Assembly (NCBI GenBank): GCA_030447385.1
Contig: JAUJOY010000001.1
Span: 685,629 to 749,628, forward strand
Direction: 5' to 3'
Source of the DNA: Mycobacteriales bacterium
Lineage (GTDB): Bacteria; Actinomycetota; Actinomycetes; Mycobacteriales; SCTD01
Length of the DNA stretch: 64,000 bases
The notes under the pieces are model-generated. The model saw only the letters and a list, made by a program, of their open reading frames with translations, had not been told where the DNA came from and made no database searches. The position numbers were made by a program, and so were the translations under genes. How positions within the stretch are numbered: the stretch's first letter is position 1; every line of letters starts with the position of its first letter. Below are positions 42,334 through 63,960 of the stretch, piece after piece.

Positions 42334-42356
42334 CGGCATGCGGAGAGGGATTGCCG

Positions 42357-43712
42357 ATGCAGGTGCGACCGACAGCAGCGCCTCGGCTGTTCGGCACCGA
42401 CGGCGTACGCGCGCTGGCCAACGGGGACGTGCTCACCCCGGAGCTCGCGCTCGCCGTCGCCCGCAGCGCGGCAACGGAGCTGCTGGCCCGCCGCGACGGC
42501 AGTGGCGGCCGCGCGCTGGCGGTGATCGGCCGGGACACCCGTCCCTCCGGGCCGATGCTGGAGGCCGCCGCAGCGGCCGGGTTCGCCAGCGCGGGCGTCG
42601 ACGTGCAGCTGCTCGGCGTGGTCCCGACCCCGGTGGTGGCGCACGCGTGCGCCAGGGGCGGCGCCGACCTCGGGCTGGTGGTCAGCGCCAGCCACAACCC
42701 GATGCCCGACAACGGCCTCAAGCTGTTCGGGCCCGGCGGGTGGAAGCTGCCTGACGAGATCGAGCAGGCTCTGGAGGCTGGCCTCGGGCGCAACCGGATA
42801 CGTCCCACCGGCAGCGCGATCGGCCGGGTGAGCACCGCCGGTCCGGAGCTGGTCGAGTCCTACGTCGACGGCCTGCTCGCCGCGCTGCCGGTGCGGGCGG
42901 GAGGGCTCAAGCTCGTCGTCGACGCCGCGCAGGGCGCTGCGTCCGCGCTGGCCCCGGAGGTCTACCGCGCGGCCGGTGCGCAGGTCGTGGCGATCGCGGC
43001 GGACGGCGACGGGGAGCGGATCAACGACGGCTGCGGGGCGACCTCCCTGGACCTCCTGCGGGCAGCCGTCGTGGAGCACGGCGCCGACCTGGGGCTGGCC
43101 CATGACGGGGACGCCGACCGGTGCCTCGCCGTCGATGCCAGCGGCGCCGTCGTGGACGGCGACCAGGTGCTGGCCATGCTCGCGGTCGCCCTGCACGAGC
43201 GGGATGCGCTCCCGCACGACACCGTGGTGGGGACGGTGATGAGCAACCTGGGGTTCGTACGCGCCATGCAGTCGCGGGGGCTCACGGTGGTCCAGACAGC
43301 CGTCGGGGACCGCTACGTCCTCGCCGCGATGCGGGCGGGTGGGTTCACCCTCGGCGGCGAGCAGAGCGGCCACACCGTGCTGCTCGACCACGCCACCACC
43401 GGCGACGGCCTGCTGACCGGCGTGAGCATCCTCGGCCGGATGGCCGAGACGGGGTCGTCGCTGGCGCAGCTCGCCCGCGTCATGACCCGGCTGCCCCAGG
43501 TGCTGCGCAACGTCCGGGCCCCGCGGGAGCGGGCACAGGACGCCGACGTGCGGAAGGCGGTGGCGGTCGAGGAGCGGCTGCTGGGGGAGGACGGGCGGGT
43601 GCTCCTGCGGCCGTCGGGCACCGAGCCGCTGGTGCGCGTGATGGTGGAGGCGCCGACCCCGGAGCAGGCGGCGGCGGTGGCCGAGCGCCTGGCCGAGGTG
43701 GTCGGCCGGTAG
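42357..43712 (+). CDS. glmM: Phosphoglucosamine mutase
   Basis: 451 residues from ATG 42357, which is 8 nt after a GGAGAGGG ribosome-binding site; the in-frame TTG two codons earlier is less likely. It interconverts glucosamine-6-phosphate and glucosamine-1-phosphate for peptidoglycan precursors. Visible motifs: RLFGTDGVRALAN, the phosphoserine loop VVSASHNPMPDNG (Ser about 104), the metal loop HDGDADRC (about 243-250), the sugar loop GGEQSGH, and the phosphate-binding RPSGTEPLVRVM at the end. It cooperates with glmS further downstream. Confidence 0.96.
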   Translation: MQVRPTAAPRLFGTDGVRALANGDVLTPELALAVARSAATELLARRDGSGGRALAVIGRDTRPSGPMLEAAAAAGFASAGVDVQLLGVVPTPVVAHACARGGADLGLVVSASHNPMPDNGLKLFGPGGWKLPDEIEQALEAGLGRNRIRPTGSAIGRVSTAGPELVESYVDGLLAALPVRAGGLKLVVDAAQGAASALAPEVYRAAGAQVVAIAADGDGERINDGCGATSLDLLRAAVVEHGADLGLAHDGDADRCLAVDASGAVVDGDQVLAMLAVALHERDALPHDTVVGTVMSNLGFVRAMQSRGLTVVQTAVGDRYVLAAMRAGGFTLGGEQSGHTVLLDHATTGDGLLTGVSILGRMAETGSSLAQLARVMTRLPQVLRNVRAPRERAQDADVRKAVAVEERLLGEDGRVLLRPSGTEPLVRVMVEAPTPEQAAAVAERLAEVVGR

Positions 43713-43751
43713 GTGCGCGGTGCCCGGGTCCCAGGTGCGCGCTGCCCGGTC

Positions 43752-45359
43752 CTACGGGATCAGCACCCCGGGGTTGAGCACGCCGCCGGGGTCGAGCCGC
43801 GCCTTGACCGCCCGCAGCACCTCGACACCCCTCTCGCCGACCTCGTCGGCGAGCCACGCCCGGTGGTCGGTGCCGATGGCGTGGTGGTGGGTGATGCTGC
43901 CCCCCGCGGCGATCAGCGCGTCGCTGGCCCCGCGCTTGGCCTCCCTCCACTGGGCGACCGGGTCGTCGGCCTGTGCGCACACGACGGTGAAGTAGAGCGA
44001 GGCGCCGGTGGGGTAGACGTGCGACACGTGGCACAGGACCAGCGGCGGCGTCGCCTCCAGCGAGGAGGTCAGCGCCGCGCGTACGGCGTCGTAGACCTGC
44101 GGCAGCGCCGACCAGAAGGCGGCGGTCTCGAGCGTCTCCGCCAGCGCCCCGACGTCAAGGAGTGCGTCGCGCAGGTAGGGGCCGGCGTAGCGGCCGCGCA
44201 CCCAGTCCTTCCCGGGTTCGGCGCCCAGCGGGCGGCCGGAGGAGGCCGTCAGGACCTCGGCGGCAGCGACGCGGTTCCGCTCGACCGCGACGGCACTCCC
44301 CTCGTGGCCCACCACGACGAGGCAGCCGCCGGCGGCGGCCGCCGGTCCGCCGACGTCGTGCGCGCGGGCCAGGCCCACAGCTGTCTCCGCCTCGTCCGAG
44401 AGCCGCAGCACCGTCGGCAGCGGCCCCTCCTGGGCGAGCCGGCGCAGCGCCGCGCATCCTTTGTCGAAGGACGCGAAGTGCCAGCCCTCGTAGGAGCGCA
44501 CCTCGGGCAGGCGGCGCACCCGCAGCGTCACCGACGTGAGGATGCCGAACGCCCCCTCGGACCCGAGGACCAGCTTCCGCAGGTCCGGTCCGGCAGCGGT
44601 CGCCGGCGCGCGCCCCAGCTCCCACACACCCTCCGGGGTCGCGAGCCGGAGGCCGACGACCAGCTCGTCGAAGCGGCCGTACCCGGCCGAGGCCTGACCG
44701 CTGGACCGGGTCGCGGCGTAGCCACCGATCGTGGCGTACTCGTAGGACTGCGGCTGGTGGCCGAGCTGCAGCCCGTGCGCAGCCAGCAGCTCCTCCGCCT
44801 GCGGGGTGCGCAGCCCCGGCTCCAGGGTGGCGGTGAGGGAGACCTCGTCGACGGCGAGCAGCCGGTTCAGGCGGGACAGGTCGAGGGCGATCACCCCGGC
44901 GAAGCCGTCGCGTCGCGCGACGAGCCCGCCGACGACGCTGGTGCCGCCACCGTACGGGACGACCGCCACCCGGTGCGCCACGCAGACGCGCAGGACCGCC
45001 ACGACCTCGTCCTCGTCGGCGGGCAGGACCACCGCGTCGGGCGCGTCGTCGGCCTCACCGCCGCGCAGGCGCAGCAGGTCCGGGGTGGACTTGCCGCGGG
45101 TGTGCAGGATCCGGCTGCGGTCGTCCTCGAGGACGTGGCCGGCTCCCACGGCAGCCGTGAGCGCCTCGCGGGCGTCCTGCGGGAGGCGGCACCCCGGGAG
45201 CCGCACGTCGGTCAGCGCGACCGGCCGCGCGTCCCGCGGCCGGATGCCCAGCCCCGCCTCGAGCAGTCCGAGCACCTCAGGGCTCAGGGGGGTCGCGGCG
45301 TCGTCGGAGCCCCAGCCGAACCAGCGTGACGTCGGTGCAGGCGCCGTGGGACGGGACAT
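43752..45359 (-). CDS. FAD-linked oxidase, alkyldihydroxyacetonephosphate-synthase-like
   Basis: 535 residues from ATG 45359. Members of this family bind FAD through a PCMH/VAO fold: here the phosphate loop VVPYGGGTSVVGGL (about 150-165), GGYAATRSSGQASAGYG (about 230) and a C-terminal FAD-oxidase domain with PTGASLYFTV, GGSITHHHAIG and LDPGGVLNPGVLIP. The His-His-His run matches the region of the ether-lipid enzyme that holds its active-site histidines. The ether-lipid role is a family guess; D-lactate or glycolate-oxidase-like use is also possible. It is divergent from pepN; a promoter with an overlapping inverted repeat lies just upstream. Confidence 0.88.
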   Translation of the reverse strand: MSRPTAPAPTSRWFGWGSDDAATPLSPEVLGLLEAGLGIRPRDARPVALTDVRLPGCRLPQDAREALTAAVGAGHVLEDDRSRILHTRGKSTPDLLRLRGGEADDAPDAVVLPADEDEVVAVLRVCVAHRVAVVPYGGGTSVVGGLVARRDGFAGVIALDLSRLNRLLAVDEVSLTATLEPGLRTPQAEELLAAHGLQLGHQPQSYEYATIGGYAATRSSGQASAGYGRFDELVVGLRLATPEGVWELGRAPATAAGPDLRKLVLGSEGAFGILTSVTLRVRRLPEVRSYEGWHFASFDKGCAALRRLAQEGPLPTVLRLSDEAETAVGLARAHDVGGPAAAAGGCLVVVGHEGSAVAVERNRVAAAEVLTASSGRPLGAEPGKDWVRGRYAGPYLRDALLDVGALAETLETAAFWSALPQVYDAVRAALTSSLEATPPLVLCHVSHVYPTGASLYFTVVCAQADDPVAQWREAKRGASDALIAAGGSITHHHAIGTDHRAWLADEVGERGVEVLRAVKARLDPGGVLNPGVLIP

Positions 45360-45366
45360 GCCGGTC

Positions 45367-45394
45367 AGTGTGACAGATATCAAGCCGGTGTCAC
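45367..45394 (-). promoter_or_regulatory. Promoter of the FAD-linked oxidase, leaderless
   Basis: Read on the minus strand: GTGACA (-35), a 16-bp spacer, CACACT (-10), then 7 nt to the ATG. This fits a leaderless start with a fair -35 box. Confidence 0.5.
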
Positions 45395-45395
45395 A
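45369..45395. promoter_or_regulatory. Inverted repeat TGTGACA-N13-TGTCACA over the promoter
   Basis: Perfect 7-bp arms at 45369-45375 and 45389-45395 cover parts of both the -35 and the -10 box of the oxidase promoter. This is a likely repressor operator; no regulator gene is adjacent, so the protein is unknown. Confidence 0.5.
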
Positions 45396-45442
45396 TGCCG
45401 CGGTCGCCCGGGCACGGTGCTGCCTCCGGCGCGGACATCTCC

Positions 45443-45521
45443 GCACACATCCTGATCGCTGCCGGCGTCCGCGAGGACGCAGTGCGCGGGGGCGGTCGCC
45501 GACGTGGATCACGATGTGTGC
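45443..45521 (+). repeat. 79-bp inverted-repeat element, copy 1
   Basis: The ends are inverted repeats: GCACACATC-C-TGATC inward from the left and GATCA-C-GATGTGTGC at the right (9 bp, one C-C mismatch, 5 bp). A second copy of the same length lies at 63855-63933 in the opposite orientation. Flanking GCGGAC on the left and AGAnGTGACCGC on the right are shared too. The centre is diverged. It is in the oxidase-pepN intergenic region. Confidence 0.8.
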
Positions 45522-45594
45522 AGACGTGACCGCTGGCAGTGCGGAGCGGGCTGCAGGACGGGGTGAGGCATGCGGGGCGGCCCGGCGCGCCACC

Positions 45595-45600
45595 TAGGGT
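45595..45600 (+). promoter_or_regulatory. TAGGGT -10 box of pepN, probable leaderless start
   Basis: TAGGGT lies 6 nt before the GTG of pepN; there is no ribosome-binding site and no clear -35. Confidence 0.45.
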
Positions 45601-45606
45601 CGGCGG

Positions 45607-48078
45607 GTGCGCAACCTGACACGGGACGAGGCCGGCGCCCGGGCGGCGCTGCTGGACGTGGCCAGCTACGACGTGCAGCTCGACCTGACCGGCGCCGACG
45701 ACACCTCGAGCACCGCAGGCCACTTCCGCTCGGGCGTCACGGTGCGCTTCACGGCGACGCCGGGATCGGCGTCGTTTGCCGAGCTGGACGGGGAGCTGCT
45801 CGAGGCGACGCTCAACGGCAGCCGCGTCGGGCCGCTGACCGGCAACCGGCTGGAGCTGCCCGGCCTGCAGACGGACAACGTGCTGGAGGTGTCCGCCCGC
45901 TGCGCGTACAGCCGCACGGGTGAGGGGCTGCACCGGTTCGTCGACCCCGAGGACGGAGCGGTCTACCTCTACGCGCAGAGCTTCCTGGACGACGCCCAGC
46001 GCATCTTCGCCTGCTTCGACCAGCCCGACCTCAAGGCGGTGTTCCGGCTGACGGTCGAGGCTCCGGACACCTGGACGGTGATCGGCAACGAGCGCGGCGC
46101 CGGCGACCGGAACCGCTGGAGCTTCGCGCCGACCCAGCGGATCAGCACCTACCTGTTCACCGTGGCCGCCGGCCCGTGGCACAGCGTCCACCGGGCGCAC
46201 GACGGGATCGAGCTGGGCCTGCACTGCCGGCGGTCGCTGGCCGCGCAGCTGGATCCGGACGAGCTGTTCGAGATCACGGGGCAGAGCTTCGACCTGCAGC
46301 AGGAGCTGTTCGGCCGGCACTACCCGTTCGGGGACACCTACGACCAGCTGTTCGTCCCGGAGTTCAACGCGGGTGCCATGGAGAACCCGGGCGCGGTGAC
46401 CTTCTCGGAGGACTTCGTCTTCCGCTCCAGGGTCACCGACGACAGGCGCCGCCGCCGGGCGATGGTGATCGCCCACGAGATGTCGCACATGTGGTTCGGC
46501 GACCTCGTCACGATGCGGTGGTGGGACGACCTGTGGCTGAACGAGTCCTTCGCCGAGCTGATGGGCTACCTCACCGTCGACCGCGCAACCCGGCACGACG
46601 GCACCTGGGTCGACTTCAGCGCGTCGCGCAAGGCGTGGGGCTATCGGGCCGACCAGCTGCCGAGCACCCACCCCGTCCAGGGCGACGTCGACGACAACCG
46701 CAGCGCGCTGCTCAACTTCGACGGGATCTCCTACGCCAAGGGTGCTTCGGTGCTGCGGCAGCTGGTGGCGACGGTCGGGGAGGACGCGTTCTTCTCGGGG
46801 GTCCGCGCCTACCTGGATCGCCACGCGTTCGCCAACACCACCTTCGCCGACCTGCTCGCCGAGCTGGAGGCGGCCAGTGGTCGCAGCCTGGACGAGTGGT
46901 CACGGGCCTGGCTGCAGACCGCCGGTGTGAGCACGCTGCGCACAGTCGTGACCGGGGACGGGGTGCAGATCCGGCAGGACGGCGGCAGACGGCCGCACCG
47001 GATCGGCGTGGGCCTGTACGACCTGTCCGGCGACGCGCTGGTCCTGCGCTCCCGGCTCGACGTCGAGGTGGACGACGCCGTCACGCCGCTGGACCTGGCG
47101 CCCGACGACCTGCCGGACCTGCTGCTGCCCAACGACGGCGACCTGACCTTCGCGAAGGTGCGCTTCGACGACCGGTCCCTCGCGACCGTACGCAGGGACC
47201 TGCGCCGGCTGGCCGACCCGCTTGCCCGAGCCCTGTGCTGGAGCGCCCTGTGGGACGCCTGCCGCGACGCCGAGCTGAGCGCGGACGACCTCGTTGCCGC
47301 CGTCCTCGCAGGTGTCGACGGCGAGAGCGACCCGGCGGTCGTCGAGACCCTGCTCAGCCAGGCGCGTACGGCCGCGACGCTCTACAGCCCGCGCGGCATC
47401 GAGCTGCGGGACAGCCTCGCGGAGGCGTCCTGGCGAGCGGCCCACGCAGCGCCCGCCGGCAGCGACCTGCAGCTCGTGCGCGTACGCGCCTTCGCCCTCG
47501 TCGCGGACGGGATCGTGCAGCCGGCCGCGCTGGAGGGACTGCTCCGCGGGACGCAGGTGCCGCCGGGTCTTGCCGTCGACACCGACCTGCGGTGGGTTCT
47601 CGTGGAGGCGCTGGCCGCCCTGGGCCGGGTCGACGACGCCGTGATCGACGCCGAACTGACCCGTGACCCAACGGCCGCCGGACGGCTGCACGCGCTCGCG
47701 GCGCGTGCCTCGCGGCCGGATCCCGCGGCCAAGGCGGACGCCTGGCAGGCCGCCGTCGCCGACACCTCCCTGTCCCACCACGAGAGCGCCGCGCTCGCCG
47801 GTGGCATCTGGCGGTTCGGGCAGGAGGCACTGCTGGGGGACTACGTCGACCGCTACGTCACCGACATGCCGGGACTGTGGGCCGCCCGTACACCGCAGGT
47901 CGCCGGCTCCCTGACCGTGCGCCTGTTTCCCTCGACCCTCGTGGAGCCGCGCGTCCTCGAGCGGACCGCGGCGCTGCTCGACGAGGTGCATCCCGCCGGG
48001 CTGCGCCGCTACGTGGCGGAGCAACGCGACGACCTCGCTCGAGCGCTGCGTGCCCGCGCCTGCGCACCACCCAGGTGA
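45607..48078 (+). CDS. pepN: Aminopeptidase N (M1 family)
   Basis: 823 residues from GTG 45607. A zinc metallopeptidase removing N-terminal residues from peptides. GAMEN exopeptidase motif at about 257-261; zinc site HEMSH at about 295-299, with the third ligand Glu in LNESFAEL 18 residues further on. The first 200 residues form the M1 beta-sheet domain, and the last 400 are the ERAP1-like helical C-terminal domain. Length is typical of actinobacterial PepN (about 830-860). Monocistronic, divergent from the oxidase. Confidence 0.95.
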   Translation: MRNLTRDEAGARAALLDVASYDVQLDLTGADDTSSTAGHFRSGVTVRFTATPGSASFAELDGELLEATLNGSRVGPLTGNRLELPGLQTDNVLEVSARCAYSRTGEGLHRFVDPEDGAVYLYAQSFLDDAQRIFACFDQPDLKAVFRLTVEAPDTWTVIGNERGAGDRNRWSFAPTQRISTYLFTVAAGPWHSVHRAHDGIELGLHCRRSLAAQLDPDELFEITGQSFDLQQELFGRHYPFGDTYDQLFVPEFNAGAMENPGAVTFSEDFVFRSRVTDDRRRRRAMVIAHEMSHMWFGDLVTMRWWDDLWLNESFAELMGYLTVDRATRHDGTWVDFSASRKAWGYRADQLPSTHPVQGDVDDNRSALLNFDGISYAKGASVLRQLVATVGEDAFFSGVRAYLDRHAFANTTFADLLAELEAASGRSLDEWSRAWLQTAGVSTLRTVVTGDGVQIRQDGGRRPHRIGVGLYDLSGDALVLRSRLDVEVDDAVTPLDLAPDDLPDLLLPNDGDLTFAKVRFDDRSLATVRRDLRRLADPLARALCWSALWDACRDAELSADDLVAAVLAGVDGESDPAVVETLLSQARTAATLYSPRGIELRDSLAEASWRAAHAAPAGSDLQLVRVRAFALVADGIVQPAALEGLLRGTQVPPGLAVDTDLRWVLVEALAALGRVDDAVIDAELTRDPTAAGRLHALAARASRPDPAAKADAWQAAVADTSLSHHESAALAGGIWRFGQEALLGDYVDRYVTDMPGLWAARTPQVAGSLTVRLFPSTLVEPRVLERTAALLDEVHPAGLRRYVAEQRDDLARALRARACAPPR

Positions 48079-48111
48079 CGCCGGCGCCCACCGCACACGT
48101 ACACCTCCGCC

Positions 48112-48774
48112 TCAGGCGCGCGGCAGCCCGAGGGCGGCGGACAGCGCGTCCGCCCACTGCAGGTAGCCCGCATCGTTGGGGTGGAAGCCATCGGCGTACA
48201 GGCCCTTGTACGGCGCGCCGGTGTAGGCCCACAGGTCCGCCACGCGCAGCCGGTGGGCGGCGGCGCACACCCGCAGCGCGTCGTTCACCTGCCGCGTCTT
48301 GCGCTCGAACACCCCGCGGGCGACGGTCGCAACGACGGCGCCCTCGGGCAGCGCGGCGCACAGGTCCTCGACGTCGGCCCGCCACTGCGCCTCCTTGGTG
48401 TGGAGGGCGTCGTTGCCTCCCACCACCGCCGTCACGAGCTCAGGCTCCGACGACGCCAGCAGCGACAGGGCCGCCGGCCACTGCGCGTCGACGACCTCAC
48501 GCGTACGCGCCCCCGAGCGGGAAAGGTTGACCACCCGCCACGGCTCGCCGCTGGACGCGCGCAGCCGCGACAGGACGACGCCGACGTAGCCCTTGTCGTA
48601 ATCGCTGGCCCCGATCCCCTGCGCGGCGCTGTCGCCGAGCACCAGCCACAGCGGCCCGCTCTCCTGCAGCGCCAGGGCATTGGCCTGCTCCCACGCGGCG
48701 CGGTAGGCCGTCACCTGCCCGATCGTGCGCTTGAAGGGCCGCAGGCGGCGCAGCAGTCCCTGACGTCGATCCAC
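48112..48774 (-). CDS. SGNH/GDSL-type hydrolase
   Basis: 220 residues from GTG 48774. Block I LVLGDSAAQGIG holds the catalytic Ser, block III VGGNDAL the oxyanion Asn, and block V ADGFHPNDAGY the catalytic Asp and His. There is no signal peptide; the N-terminus is basic (RRQGLLRRLRPFKR). It is an esterase or lipase of unknown substrate. It is convergent with pepN (33 bp between stops) and divergent from glmS, with promoters only 11 bp apart. Confidence 0.88.
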   Translation of the reverse strand: MDRRQGLLRRLRPFKRTIGQVTAYRAAWEQANALALQESGPLWLVLGDSAAQGIGASDYDKGYVGVVLSRLRASSGEPWRVVNLSRSGARTREVVDAQWPAALSLLASSEPELVTAVVGGNDALHTKEAQWRADVEDLCAALPEGAVVATVARGVFERKTRQVNDALRVCAAAHRLRVADLWAYTGAPYKGLYADGFHPNDAGYLQWADALSAALGLPRA

Positions 48775-48780
48775 GCCGAG

Positions 48781-48786
48781 ACGCTA
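48781..48786 (-). promoter_or_regulatory. TAGCGT -10 box of the SGNH hydrolase, probable leaderless start
   Basis: On the minus strand TAGCGT is followed by 6 nt and the GTG start, with no ribosome-binding site. Confidence 0.5.
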
Positions 48787-48797
48787 CGTGAGAGGGC

Positions 48798-48803
48798 TAG
48801 CCT
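48798..48803 (+). promoter_or_regulatory. TAGCCT -10 box of glmS, probable leaderless start
   Basis: TAGCCT lies 7 nt before the glmS ATG; the sequence between is GCCCCCC with no ribosome-binding site. Confidence 0.5.
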
Positions 48804-48810
48804 GCCCCCC

Positions 48811-50652
48811 ATGTGCGGCATCGTGGGCTATGTCGGGGATCAGCAGGCGCTGGAGGTCGTGCTCGACGGGCTGCGCCGGCTGGAGTACCGCGGCTACGAC
48901 AGCGCGGGCGTGTCGATCCTCGGCGCCGCCGGCCTGCAGGTGGAGCGCAAGGCGGGCAAGCTCGCCAACCTCGAGAAGCAGCTCGCGGAGCAGGACCTGC
49001 AGGGCAGCCTCGGCATCGGGCACACGCGCTGGGCGACCCACGGCGCGCCCACCGACGGCAACGCCCACCCGCACTCGGACTGCTCCGGCGCCGTGGCCGT
49101 CGTGCACAACGGCACCATCGAGAACTACCAGGCCCTGGTCGCCCAGCTCGACGCCCGCGGCCATGTGCGACGGTCCGAGACCGACACCGAGGTGGTCGCG
49201 CACCTGCTCGAGGAGCGCTACACCGACGGTCCGACCGCGGGCGACCTTCCGGCCAGCCTGCGGTCGGTCTGCCGTGACCTCGAGGGCTCGTTCGTCCTCG
49301 TCGTCAGCCACCGCGAGGAGCCCGACCTGGTCGTGGCCGCGCGGCGCAACCTGCCGCTGGTGATCGGCCTCGGCGACGGCGAGAACTTCGTCGGCTCCGA
49401 CGTCACGGCGTTCATCGCGCACACCCGCAAGGCGCGCGCCGTCGAGCAGGACCAGGTCGTCGAGCTGCGCCGCTCGGGTGTCACGGTCACCGACCTGGAC
49501 GGCACCGTCGTCGAGGGCCCGAGCTACCACGTCGATTGGGACACCGCCGCCGCCGAGAAGGGCGGCTACGAGTTCTTCATGCTCAAGGAGATCGACGAGC
49601 AGCCGGGAGCGGTGCGCGACACCCTCGGCGGCCGCCTCACCTCCGGGGGCCTGCTGCACCTCGACGAGCTGGCGATGAGCGACGAGGACGTGCGCGGCCT
49701 CGAGCAGGTGTTCATCGTCGCCTGCGGCTCGGCCTACCACTCCGGCCTCATCGGCAAGTACGCCATCGAGCGCTGGTGCCGCCTGCCGGTGCAGGTCGAG
49801 ATGGCCTCGGAGTTCCGCTACCGCGATCCGGTGCTCGGCCGGGACACCCTCGTCATCGCCGTGTCGCAGTCCGGCGAGACCGCCGACACCCTGGAGGCCG
49901 TACGCCACGCGCGCAACCAGAAGGCGTGGGTCCTGGCCGTCACCAACACAGTCGGCTCCACGATCTCCCGCGAGAGCGACGCCGCGCTCTACACCCGGGG
50001 CGGTCCCGAGGTCGCCGTCGCCTCCACGAAGGCGGTGATGACGCAGATCACCGCGATGTACCTCGTCGGTCTCTACCTCGCCCAGCTGCGCGGCACCCGC
50101 GACCCGGACGAGGTACGCGCCCACCTGCGCGACCTGCAGTCGATCCCGGAGCTCGTGGCGGAGCTGCTGTCCCGGATGGACGGCGTACGCGACATCGCCC
50201 GGTCCATCGTCGACGCCCCGCGCGTGCTGTTCCTCGGCCGCCACGTCGGCTACCCGATGGCGCTCGAGGGGGCGCTCAAGCTCAAGGAGCTGGCCTACAT
50301 CAGCGCCGAGGGCTTCCCGGCCGGGGAGATCAAGCACGGCCCCATCGCGCTGGTGGAGGAGGGCACGCCGGTCGTGGTGATCGCCCCCCGGCATGCCCTG
50401 CAGCCCAAGCTGATCAACAACATCCAGGAGGTACGCGCCCGCGGCGCACGCACGATCGTGCTGGCCACCGACGGCGACGACAGCGCCACCCCGTACGCCG
50501 ACCACGTGATCCGCATCCCGGACACCAAGTCGCTGCTCGCACCACTGCTGACCCTCGTCCCCATGCAGGTGCTGTCCGCGGAGATCGCCCGGCTGCGCGG
50601 CCTCGACGTCGACCAGCCGCGCAACCTGGCCAAGTCCGTCACCGTCGAGTAG
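48811..50652 (+). CDS. glmS: Glutamine-fructose-6-phosphate aminotransferase (isomerising)
   Basis: 613 residues from ATG 48811, which places the nucleophile Cys directly after the initiator Met (CGIVGYVG). It makes glucosamine-6-phosphate from fructose-6-phosphate and glutamine, the first step to UDP-GlcNAc. N-terminal glutaminase domain (1-230), two SIS sugar-isomerase domains (about 290-420 and 460-600; CGSAYHSG, SQSGETADT) and the C-terminal ending DQPRNLAKSVTVE with the conserved Lys. The long upstream in-frame region is not part of it. No glmS ribozyme is present, since the start appears leaderless. Confidence 0.96.
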   Translation: MCGIVGYVGDQQALEVVLDGLRRLEYRGYDSAGVSILGAAGLQVERKAGKLANLEKQLAEQDLQGSLGIGHTRWATHGAPTDGNAHPHSDCSGAVAVVHNGTIENYQALVAQLDARGHVRRSETDTEVVAHLLEERYTDGPTAGDLPASLRSVCRDLEGSFVLVVSHREEPDLVVAARRNLPLVIGLGDGENFVGSDVTAFIAHTRKARAVEQDQVVELRRSGVTVTDLDGTVVEGPSYHVDWDTAAAEKGGYEFFMLKEIDEQPGAVRDTLGGRLTSGGLLHLDELAMSDEDVRGLEQVFIVACGSAYHSGLIGKYAIERWCRLPVQVEMASEFRYRDPVLGRDTLVIAVSQSGETADTLEAVRHARNQKAWVLAVTNTVGSTISRESDAALYTRGGPEVAVASTKAVMTQITAMYLVGLYLAQLRGTRDPDEVRAHLRDLQSIPELVAELLSRMDGVRDIARSIVDAPRVLFLGRHVGYPMALEGALKLKELAYISAEGFPAGEIKHGPIALVEEGTPVVVIAPRHALQPKLINNIQEVRARGARTIVLATDGDDSATPYADHVIRIPDTKSLLAPLLTLVPMQVLSAEIARLRGLDVDQPRNLAKSVTVE

Positions 50653-63804: not shown

Positions 63805-63854
63805 GGCCCCCGCCGTAGCCGGAACCCGGTCTGCGGGCGGAGGCGGTCACTTCT

Positions 63855-63933
63855 GCACACATCGTGATCGACATCGCCACCTGCGCGAGCGTGCACCACC
63901 CGCGAAGGCCCCGACGATGATCAGGATGTGTGC
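63855..63933 (-). repeat. 79-bp inverted-repeat element, copy 2
   Basis: It matches copy 1 (45443-45521) when read on the minus strand: same length, same arms GCACACATC-C-TGATC and GATCA-C-GATGTGTGC, shared flanks GCGGAC and AGAnGTGACCGC. It fills most of the rimI-tsaD intergenic region. Confidence 0.8.
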
Positions 63934-63960
63934 AGCGCGGTCCGCGACCGGCCCGCTCCG

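Follow-up and report, generated by a model that had tools for sequence, protein, structure and literature searches.

In Mycobacterium tuberculosis and M. bovis BCG, the gene order given in Table 2 of PMC4564863 is Rv2249c (glpD1), Rv2250c (a regulator), Rv2251 (a flavoprotein) and Rv2252 (a diacylglycerol kinase). When InbR was overexpressed in M. bovis BCG, the log2 values of Rv2249c, Rv2250c, Rv2251 and Rv2252 were 2.28, 2.11, 2.16 and 2.20, respectively, and no InbR peak is listed there (PMC4564863). The joint rise of the four BCG genes, including the regulator's own gene, fits autoregulation and is not proof of repression. A palindromic MEME motif between Rv2250c and the divergent gene appears in Table 2 of PMC4482099 with an E-value of 2.4e-11, below the authors' cut-off; it was published as a logo image. 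Rv2250c has also been presented as a late responder under hypoxia (PMC12269550). The kind of system and a computational motif for one homologue (Rv2250c) are already known, and neither a letter motif nor an operon with its regulator in Streptomyces was found in the open-licence literature.

The stretch of DNA analysed here (the window, 64,000 nucleotides from a Mycobacteriales bacterium) carries a counterpart of Rv2251. The same four kinds of genes, judged from the published gene listing of M. tuberculosis and M. bovis BCG (Rv2249c-Rv2250c and Rv2251-Rv2252), form a single cluster in relatives of the window genome, in the order glpD-tetR and oxidase-kinase, with an operator between tetR and the oxidase. 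In the window genome, in contrast, this cluster is split: the oxidase lies in the window and the others on another contig. The features of the window that are considered below are the following.

42351..43712, plus strand: glmM, TIGR01455 above cut-off; native neighbour, convergent with the oxidase
43752..45359, minus strand: flavoprotein of the AGPS family with FAD_binding_4 and FAD-oxidase_C, 535 aa; Rv2251 counterpart by gene neighbourhood
45364..45369, minus strand: ACTGAC, in many relatives ACTGTA (= TACAGT), a putative decayed tetR -10
45367..45372, minus strand: putative -10 hexamer CACACT, 3/6 to TATAAT, with the A at position 2 and the T at position 6 present, 7 nt before the ATG
45369..45395, minus strand: putative operator, inverted repeat TGTGACA-N13-TGTCACA with arms at 45389-45395 and 45369-45375, kept before orthologous oxidases
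45389..45394, minus strand: putative -35 hexamer GTGACA, 5/6 to TTGACA, within the operator, read from the letters
45607..48078, plus strand: pepN, TIGR02412 above cut-off; native neighbour, divergent from the oxidase

The best PDB matches of the oxidase are the Dictyostelium and mammalian alkyldihydroxyacetonephosphate synthases (AGPS) 2uuu (1.3e-85) and 4bby (2.8e-70). Besides the FAD_binding_4 and FAD-oxidase_C domains, the protein has an HHH stretch and a YF/LYF tyrosine that align with these synthases and which we take to be AGPS functional residues, and it falls in the AGPS family on these features. Unlike the two synthases, the window enzyme is bacterial, and it is called AGPS-like from its sequence. 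NCBIfam returned sub-cut-off matches only, the best being GlcD. The label "FAD-linked oxidase", given in an earlier sequence-only reading of the window, was imprecise, the nearest solved relatives being synthases; "oxidase" is kept below for brevity.

The inverted repeat TGTGACA-N13-TGTCACA, which that reading had pointed out, is present without mismatch at 45369-45395 on the minus strand. The broader span assigned to it, 45357-45395, includes the repeat, and the rest consists of the ATG (45359-45357) and the 9-nt gap between the repeat end and the ATG at 45359. In the genome (3.41 Mb, 13 contigs), the repeat occurs once without mismatch (in the window), once with one mismatch and three times with two mismatches. 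The one-mismatch copy, at G000:C8:260699-260725 in the window genome (G000), spans the start codon of a tetR gene, and the window site and this tetR start site are the sole copies with at most one mismatch genome-wide. A search for further sites had been proposed as a way to find the regulator, and the closest other copy does name a candidate:

G000:C8:260707-261378: tetR, 224-aa TetR-family protein with TetR_N (PF00440)

As a member of the TetR family, this protein has an N-terminal TetR_N helix-turn-helix (PF00440), which scores 38.1 bits (cut-off 24; 1.3e-9), and as a query it gave a single match in the window genome at E <= 1e-10. Behind tetR lies glpD, forming a tetR-glpD operon, and a lipid kinase gene is divergent from tetR. 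The best NCBIfam matches of glpD are glycerol-3-phosphate dehydrogenases, below cut-off, and Pfam gives DAO, with DAO_C at 53.8 bits against 31.4. The divergent kinase belongs to the YegS/Rv2252/BmrU lipid kinase family (TIGR00147, above cut-off). All three genes look resident, judging by their products, which are 73-77% identical to those of the congener G007. Two of the three two-mismatch copies of the repeat, G000:C9:37193-37219 and G000:C9:420927-420953, are near-identical to each other across 27 nt, so they look less like members of a regulon than like another repeated element.

These findings make it very probable that the repeat is the operator of an Rv2250c-type TetR repressor, and that the same repressor (C8:260707-261378) would act in trans on the window oxidase. 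The earlier interpretation of the repeat as a repressor operator is well supported, as a prediction, by the site at the tetR start, by its conservation and by its distance to the start codon. Conservation was assessed at 30 loci of relatives and at the best 80 of 585 confirmed relatives in named genomes, the latter leaning to Streptomyces, Streptosporangiaceae and Nocardioides; upstream DNA was available for 108 of these 110 loci, and the two without it (L007 and L032) were dropped before counting. Each was scored by its best fit to TGTGAC-N15-GTCACA (12 arm letters) within 300 nt upstream, with a threshold of 10/12. At least 10 was reached at 84 of the 90 oxidase loci with tetR in the locus versus 2 of the 18 without it, so the repeat, whose absence before orthologous oxidases had been named as evidence against the operator, is regularly found there, immediately ahead of a same-family oxidase. 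When 300-nt windows were drawn at random from these loci, 15 of 2107 draws scored at least 10, and none of 11 stretches upstream of paralogous oxidases (about 40% identical) did.

The exceptions on both sides were inspected individually. The two site-bearing loci without a nearby tetR are the window and the congener G005, and each of these genomes carries tetR at another place, again with a site of its own. Among the other 16 loci without tetR nearby, two are the paralogues L033 and L034, and 14 are in genomes in which tetR was not found (4 at E <= 1e-10, 10 at E <= 1e-8). Five of the six below-threshold loci with tetR carry diverged variants: the symmetric TTTTAC..GTAAAA at L008 and L011, and TTAC/GTAA- or GTCAA-like variants, judged by eye, at L012, L013 and L014. 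At L119, where tetR is upstream in the same direction, no operator variant was found upstream of the oxidase. The two arms vary jointly at L008 and L011, and also at L022 (TGTTAC..GTAACA). An oxidase tree with 106 rows, from which the paralogues L033 and L034 (34-39%) had been left out, shows 5 changes of tetR and 6 of the site; it yields three supported independent pairs for tetR and site, concordant in nearly every pairing and too few for sign-test significance.

The same counts bear on two other explanations. A functionless palindrome that arose by chance has a very small probability: a relaxed pattern, TGTKACR-N13-YGTMACA, did occur at 26 places in 61 genomes, 7 of them off-locus, and its reversed control at 2 places, but the other 19 lie at tetR/oxidase loci, the exact repeat stands in a putative promoter at the same place as in orthologues, and none of 100 dinucleotide-shuffled versions of the window contained it. 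Chance origin was ruled out by the shuffles together with the conservation before orthologous oxidases. In the same scan, two on-locus sites occurred only in G000 and G005, which fits the split clusters of both. Ownership of the window site by another regulator (a TetR paralogue, or one of the CRP/FNR or GntR type) is improbable as well. The CRP consensus is TGTGA-N6-TCACA, and the half sites TGTGA..TCACA resemble it, but here they are spaced by N17 and not N6, by which a CRP-type site was ruled out; moreover, the site tracks the presence of tetR across loci, and the resident tetR has only its one genome match at E <= 1e-10.

Three loci with unusual arrangements are recorded here. Upstream of the oxidase of Protofrankia coriariae (L123), the only match is the inner pair TGTGAC-N7-GTCACA, a half site, and a search of that genome gave no tetR; this may be a relic or the site of another regulator. 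In the congener G003 (L127), tetR-glpD is divergent from the kinase, with an operator, and a close oxidase was not found in the assembly, which is 87% complete; the regulator may outlive the oxidase in this lineage. L085 is a contig labelled as a Chloroflexi MAG with an actinobacterial tetR-operator-oxidase arrangement, either a mislabelled bin or a transfer.

On the minus strand, the order before the oxidase is GTGACA (45394-45389), a 16-nt spacer, CACACT (45372-45367), 7 nt and the ATG. The letters and the spacing of the overlap between the repeat and the -35 and -10 boxes are thus as the sequence-only reading had them, but CACACT is a poor hexamer (3/6), and a scan of 45330-45650 for the sigma-70 consensus did not find a promoter. 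CACACT is present in many orthologues of family f1 and of Nocardioides, and a leaderless promoter at the oxidase is plausible. The distance from the repeat to the ATG is conserved among orthologues: at L104, L125, L006 and L097, for example, the ATG is also 9-10 nt past the repeat. This supports the start codon at 45359, where a different start site would have weakened the earlier proposal. CTGTAACGCATG, or a sequence close to it, comes after the site at many loci of family f1 and of Nocardioides, with the oxidase ATG 9-10 nt past the site, and the opposite strand of a CTGTAACGCATG-type stretch reads TACAGT-N7-ATG of tetR. Actinobacterial leaderless promoters have a form that obeys the TANNNT rule, and TACAGT is likely the -10 of a divergent leaderless tetR in these relatives. 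The change from ACTGTA to ACTGAC in the window is apparently a decay of this tetR -10, as would be expected with no tetR next to it.

The window site has all 12 letters of the TGTGAC-N15-GTCACA arms, and its inner 15 bp match those of 85 other sites at 4.7 positions on average and at 7 at most. Two inner bases are near-invariant elsewhere, G12 (83/85) and C14 (84/85), and the window has C12 and T14 instead; these two bases are not known to define binding, and in relatives they belong partly to tetR codons. Since C14 mostly falls on a third codon position there, the repressor may read C14 and the window site may bind it more weakly. Conservation of the arms merely through overlap with tetR codons was rejected, since the window site has no such overlap and yet its arms are intact and its inner part is scrambled. 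Freed from the tetR codons, the window site is a natural experiment on the bases that selection keeps. It is unlikely that the repeat is only a relic, brought along with a transferred oxidase from the tetR-oxidase gap of the donor and now binding nothing. The loss of G12 and C14 and the decay of the adjoining tetR -10 would agree with this, but a relic would decay evenly, whereas here the 12 outer arm bases are all intact beside an inner 15 bp that is near random against the 85 others, and a cognate tetR with the same arms exists in the genome.

In the preferred reading, control by the resident TetR, a TetR dimer, or two, would sit on the TGTGAC and GTCACA arms across the -35 to -10 of the leaderless promoter and block RNA polymerase. 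Release of the protein would come from a small molecule, probably a metabolite of lipids or glycerolipids, and would switch the flavoprotein on, which would make the oxidase inducible rather than housekeeping, as proposed earlier. From the site over its own start codon, TetR would control itself and glpD, and perhaps also the lipid kinase divergent from it. In relatives, one operator would thus serve four genes, and here, with the cluster split, the oxidase would be linked in trans by its own operator. We infer binding, repression, the leaderless start and the ligand from the letters and their conservation. KstR, KstR2, BkaR and QacR, as presented in PMC4482099, have in common with this system a palindromic operator and a small local regulon. 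The present site differs in that it is 27 bp long, with 6-7-nt arms 13-15 bp apart, and lies over the regulator's start codon; any action it has in the window would be in trans, on a single isolated gene. The additions made here are an operator spelled out in letters for many Actinomycetota, its pairing with the oxidase gene of the window, and the displacement described below. An anonymous palindrome becomes a repressor-operator pair that can be tested and whose gene is named, and Rv2250c-type regulators gain an operator in letters where the literature search had turned up only a logo of weak significance. The bacterial AGPS-like enzyme is now tied to a glycerol-3-phosphate dehydrogenase and a lipid kinase. 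DHAP is the product of GlpD, acyl-DHAP is a substrate of AGPS, and the kinase works on lipids; from these substrates one may reasonably guess at a module for glycerolipids or ether lipids whose inducer would be lipid-like.

The oxidase itself is probably foreign. In a tree of 55 oxidases (25 of the best-80 named loci and 30 loci of relatives), the eleven other family f1 oxidases form one clade (100/100), and the window oxidase groups with those of Nocardioides, Streptomyces, Streptosporangiaceae and Protofrankia (99/97). Constraining it to the f1 clade was rejected in a test without the paralogues L033 and L034 (AU p 9.7e-5). Elsewhere, pepN directly follows glmM in 7 of the 10 other f1 genomes where glmM was matched (L160, L162, L163 and L173 of the genus, L164, L165 and L167 of the family), and in L161, L166 and L177 pepN was not found within the 1.5-kb glmM flank; in the window the oxidase lies in between. 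In the window genome the gap between tetR and the kinase, its position in relatives, lacks it, and apart from the window copy no close oxidase turned up in this genome, the next listed match having 29% identity. There is no clear GC step at the oxidase (0.76-0.77 within it versus 0.69-0.76 around it), so composition gives transfer no support, but the tree and the gene order do. These data point to a probable xenologous displacement, in which the native copy was lost and a foreign oxidase was inserted elsewhere with, or regaining, the operator of the resident repressor; we infer the direction of transfer.

G005 has the same split cluster and a Nocardioides-like oxidase (100/98), and may be a second instance of the same displacement; its assembly is fragmented (83% complete, 3% contamination), and contamination may account for this. 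A broader proposal, somewhat short of probable, is that the operator serves as a portable address: a foreign AGPS-like gene would have displaced the native one, settled between two unrelated housekeeping genes and kept or joined its place in the resident regulon solely through 12 operator bases. It would mark an Actinomycetota-wide module of GlpD, AGPS-like enzyme and lipid kinase, governed by a single repressor and perhaps serving the chemistry of ether lipids or glycerolipids.

A palindromic element of about 108 nt occurs in the gap between the operator and pepN (45431-45533) and again at 63843-63951 of the window. It is found at about a dozen places in the window genome, at 70-79% identity over its length, with 4 matches in the congener G003. 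No Rfam match was found in 43600-48900, and the predicted fold of the 45431-45533 copy as single-stranded DNA is not better than that of shuffled sequences (z -1.17). Its ends are an inverted pair of the 15-mer GATCACGATGTGTGC and its complement, which has 24 copies with at most one mismatch versus 0 in the reversed control; the two lie at an offset of 63-65 nt in ten measured pairs, around a variable middle. Spacing that stays nearly constant around a changing middle points to paired protein sites or to a mobile, REP-like hairpin.
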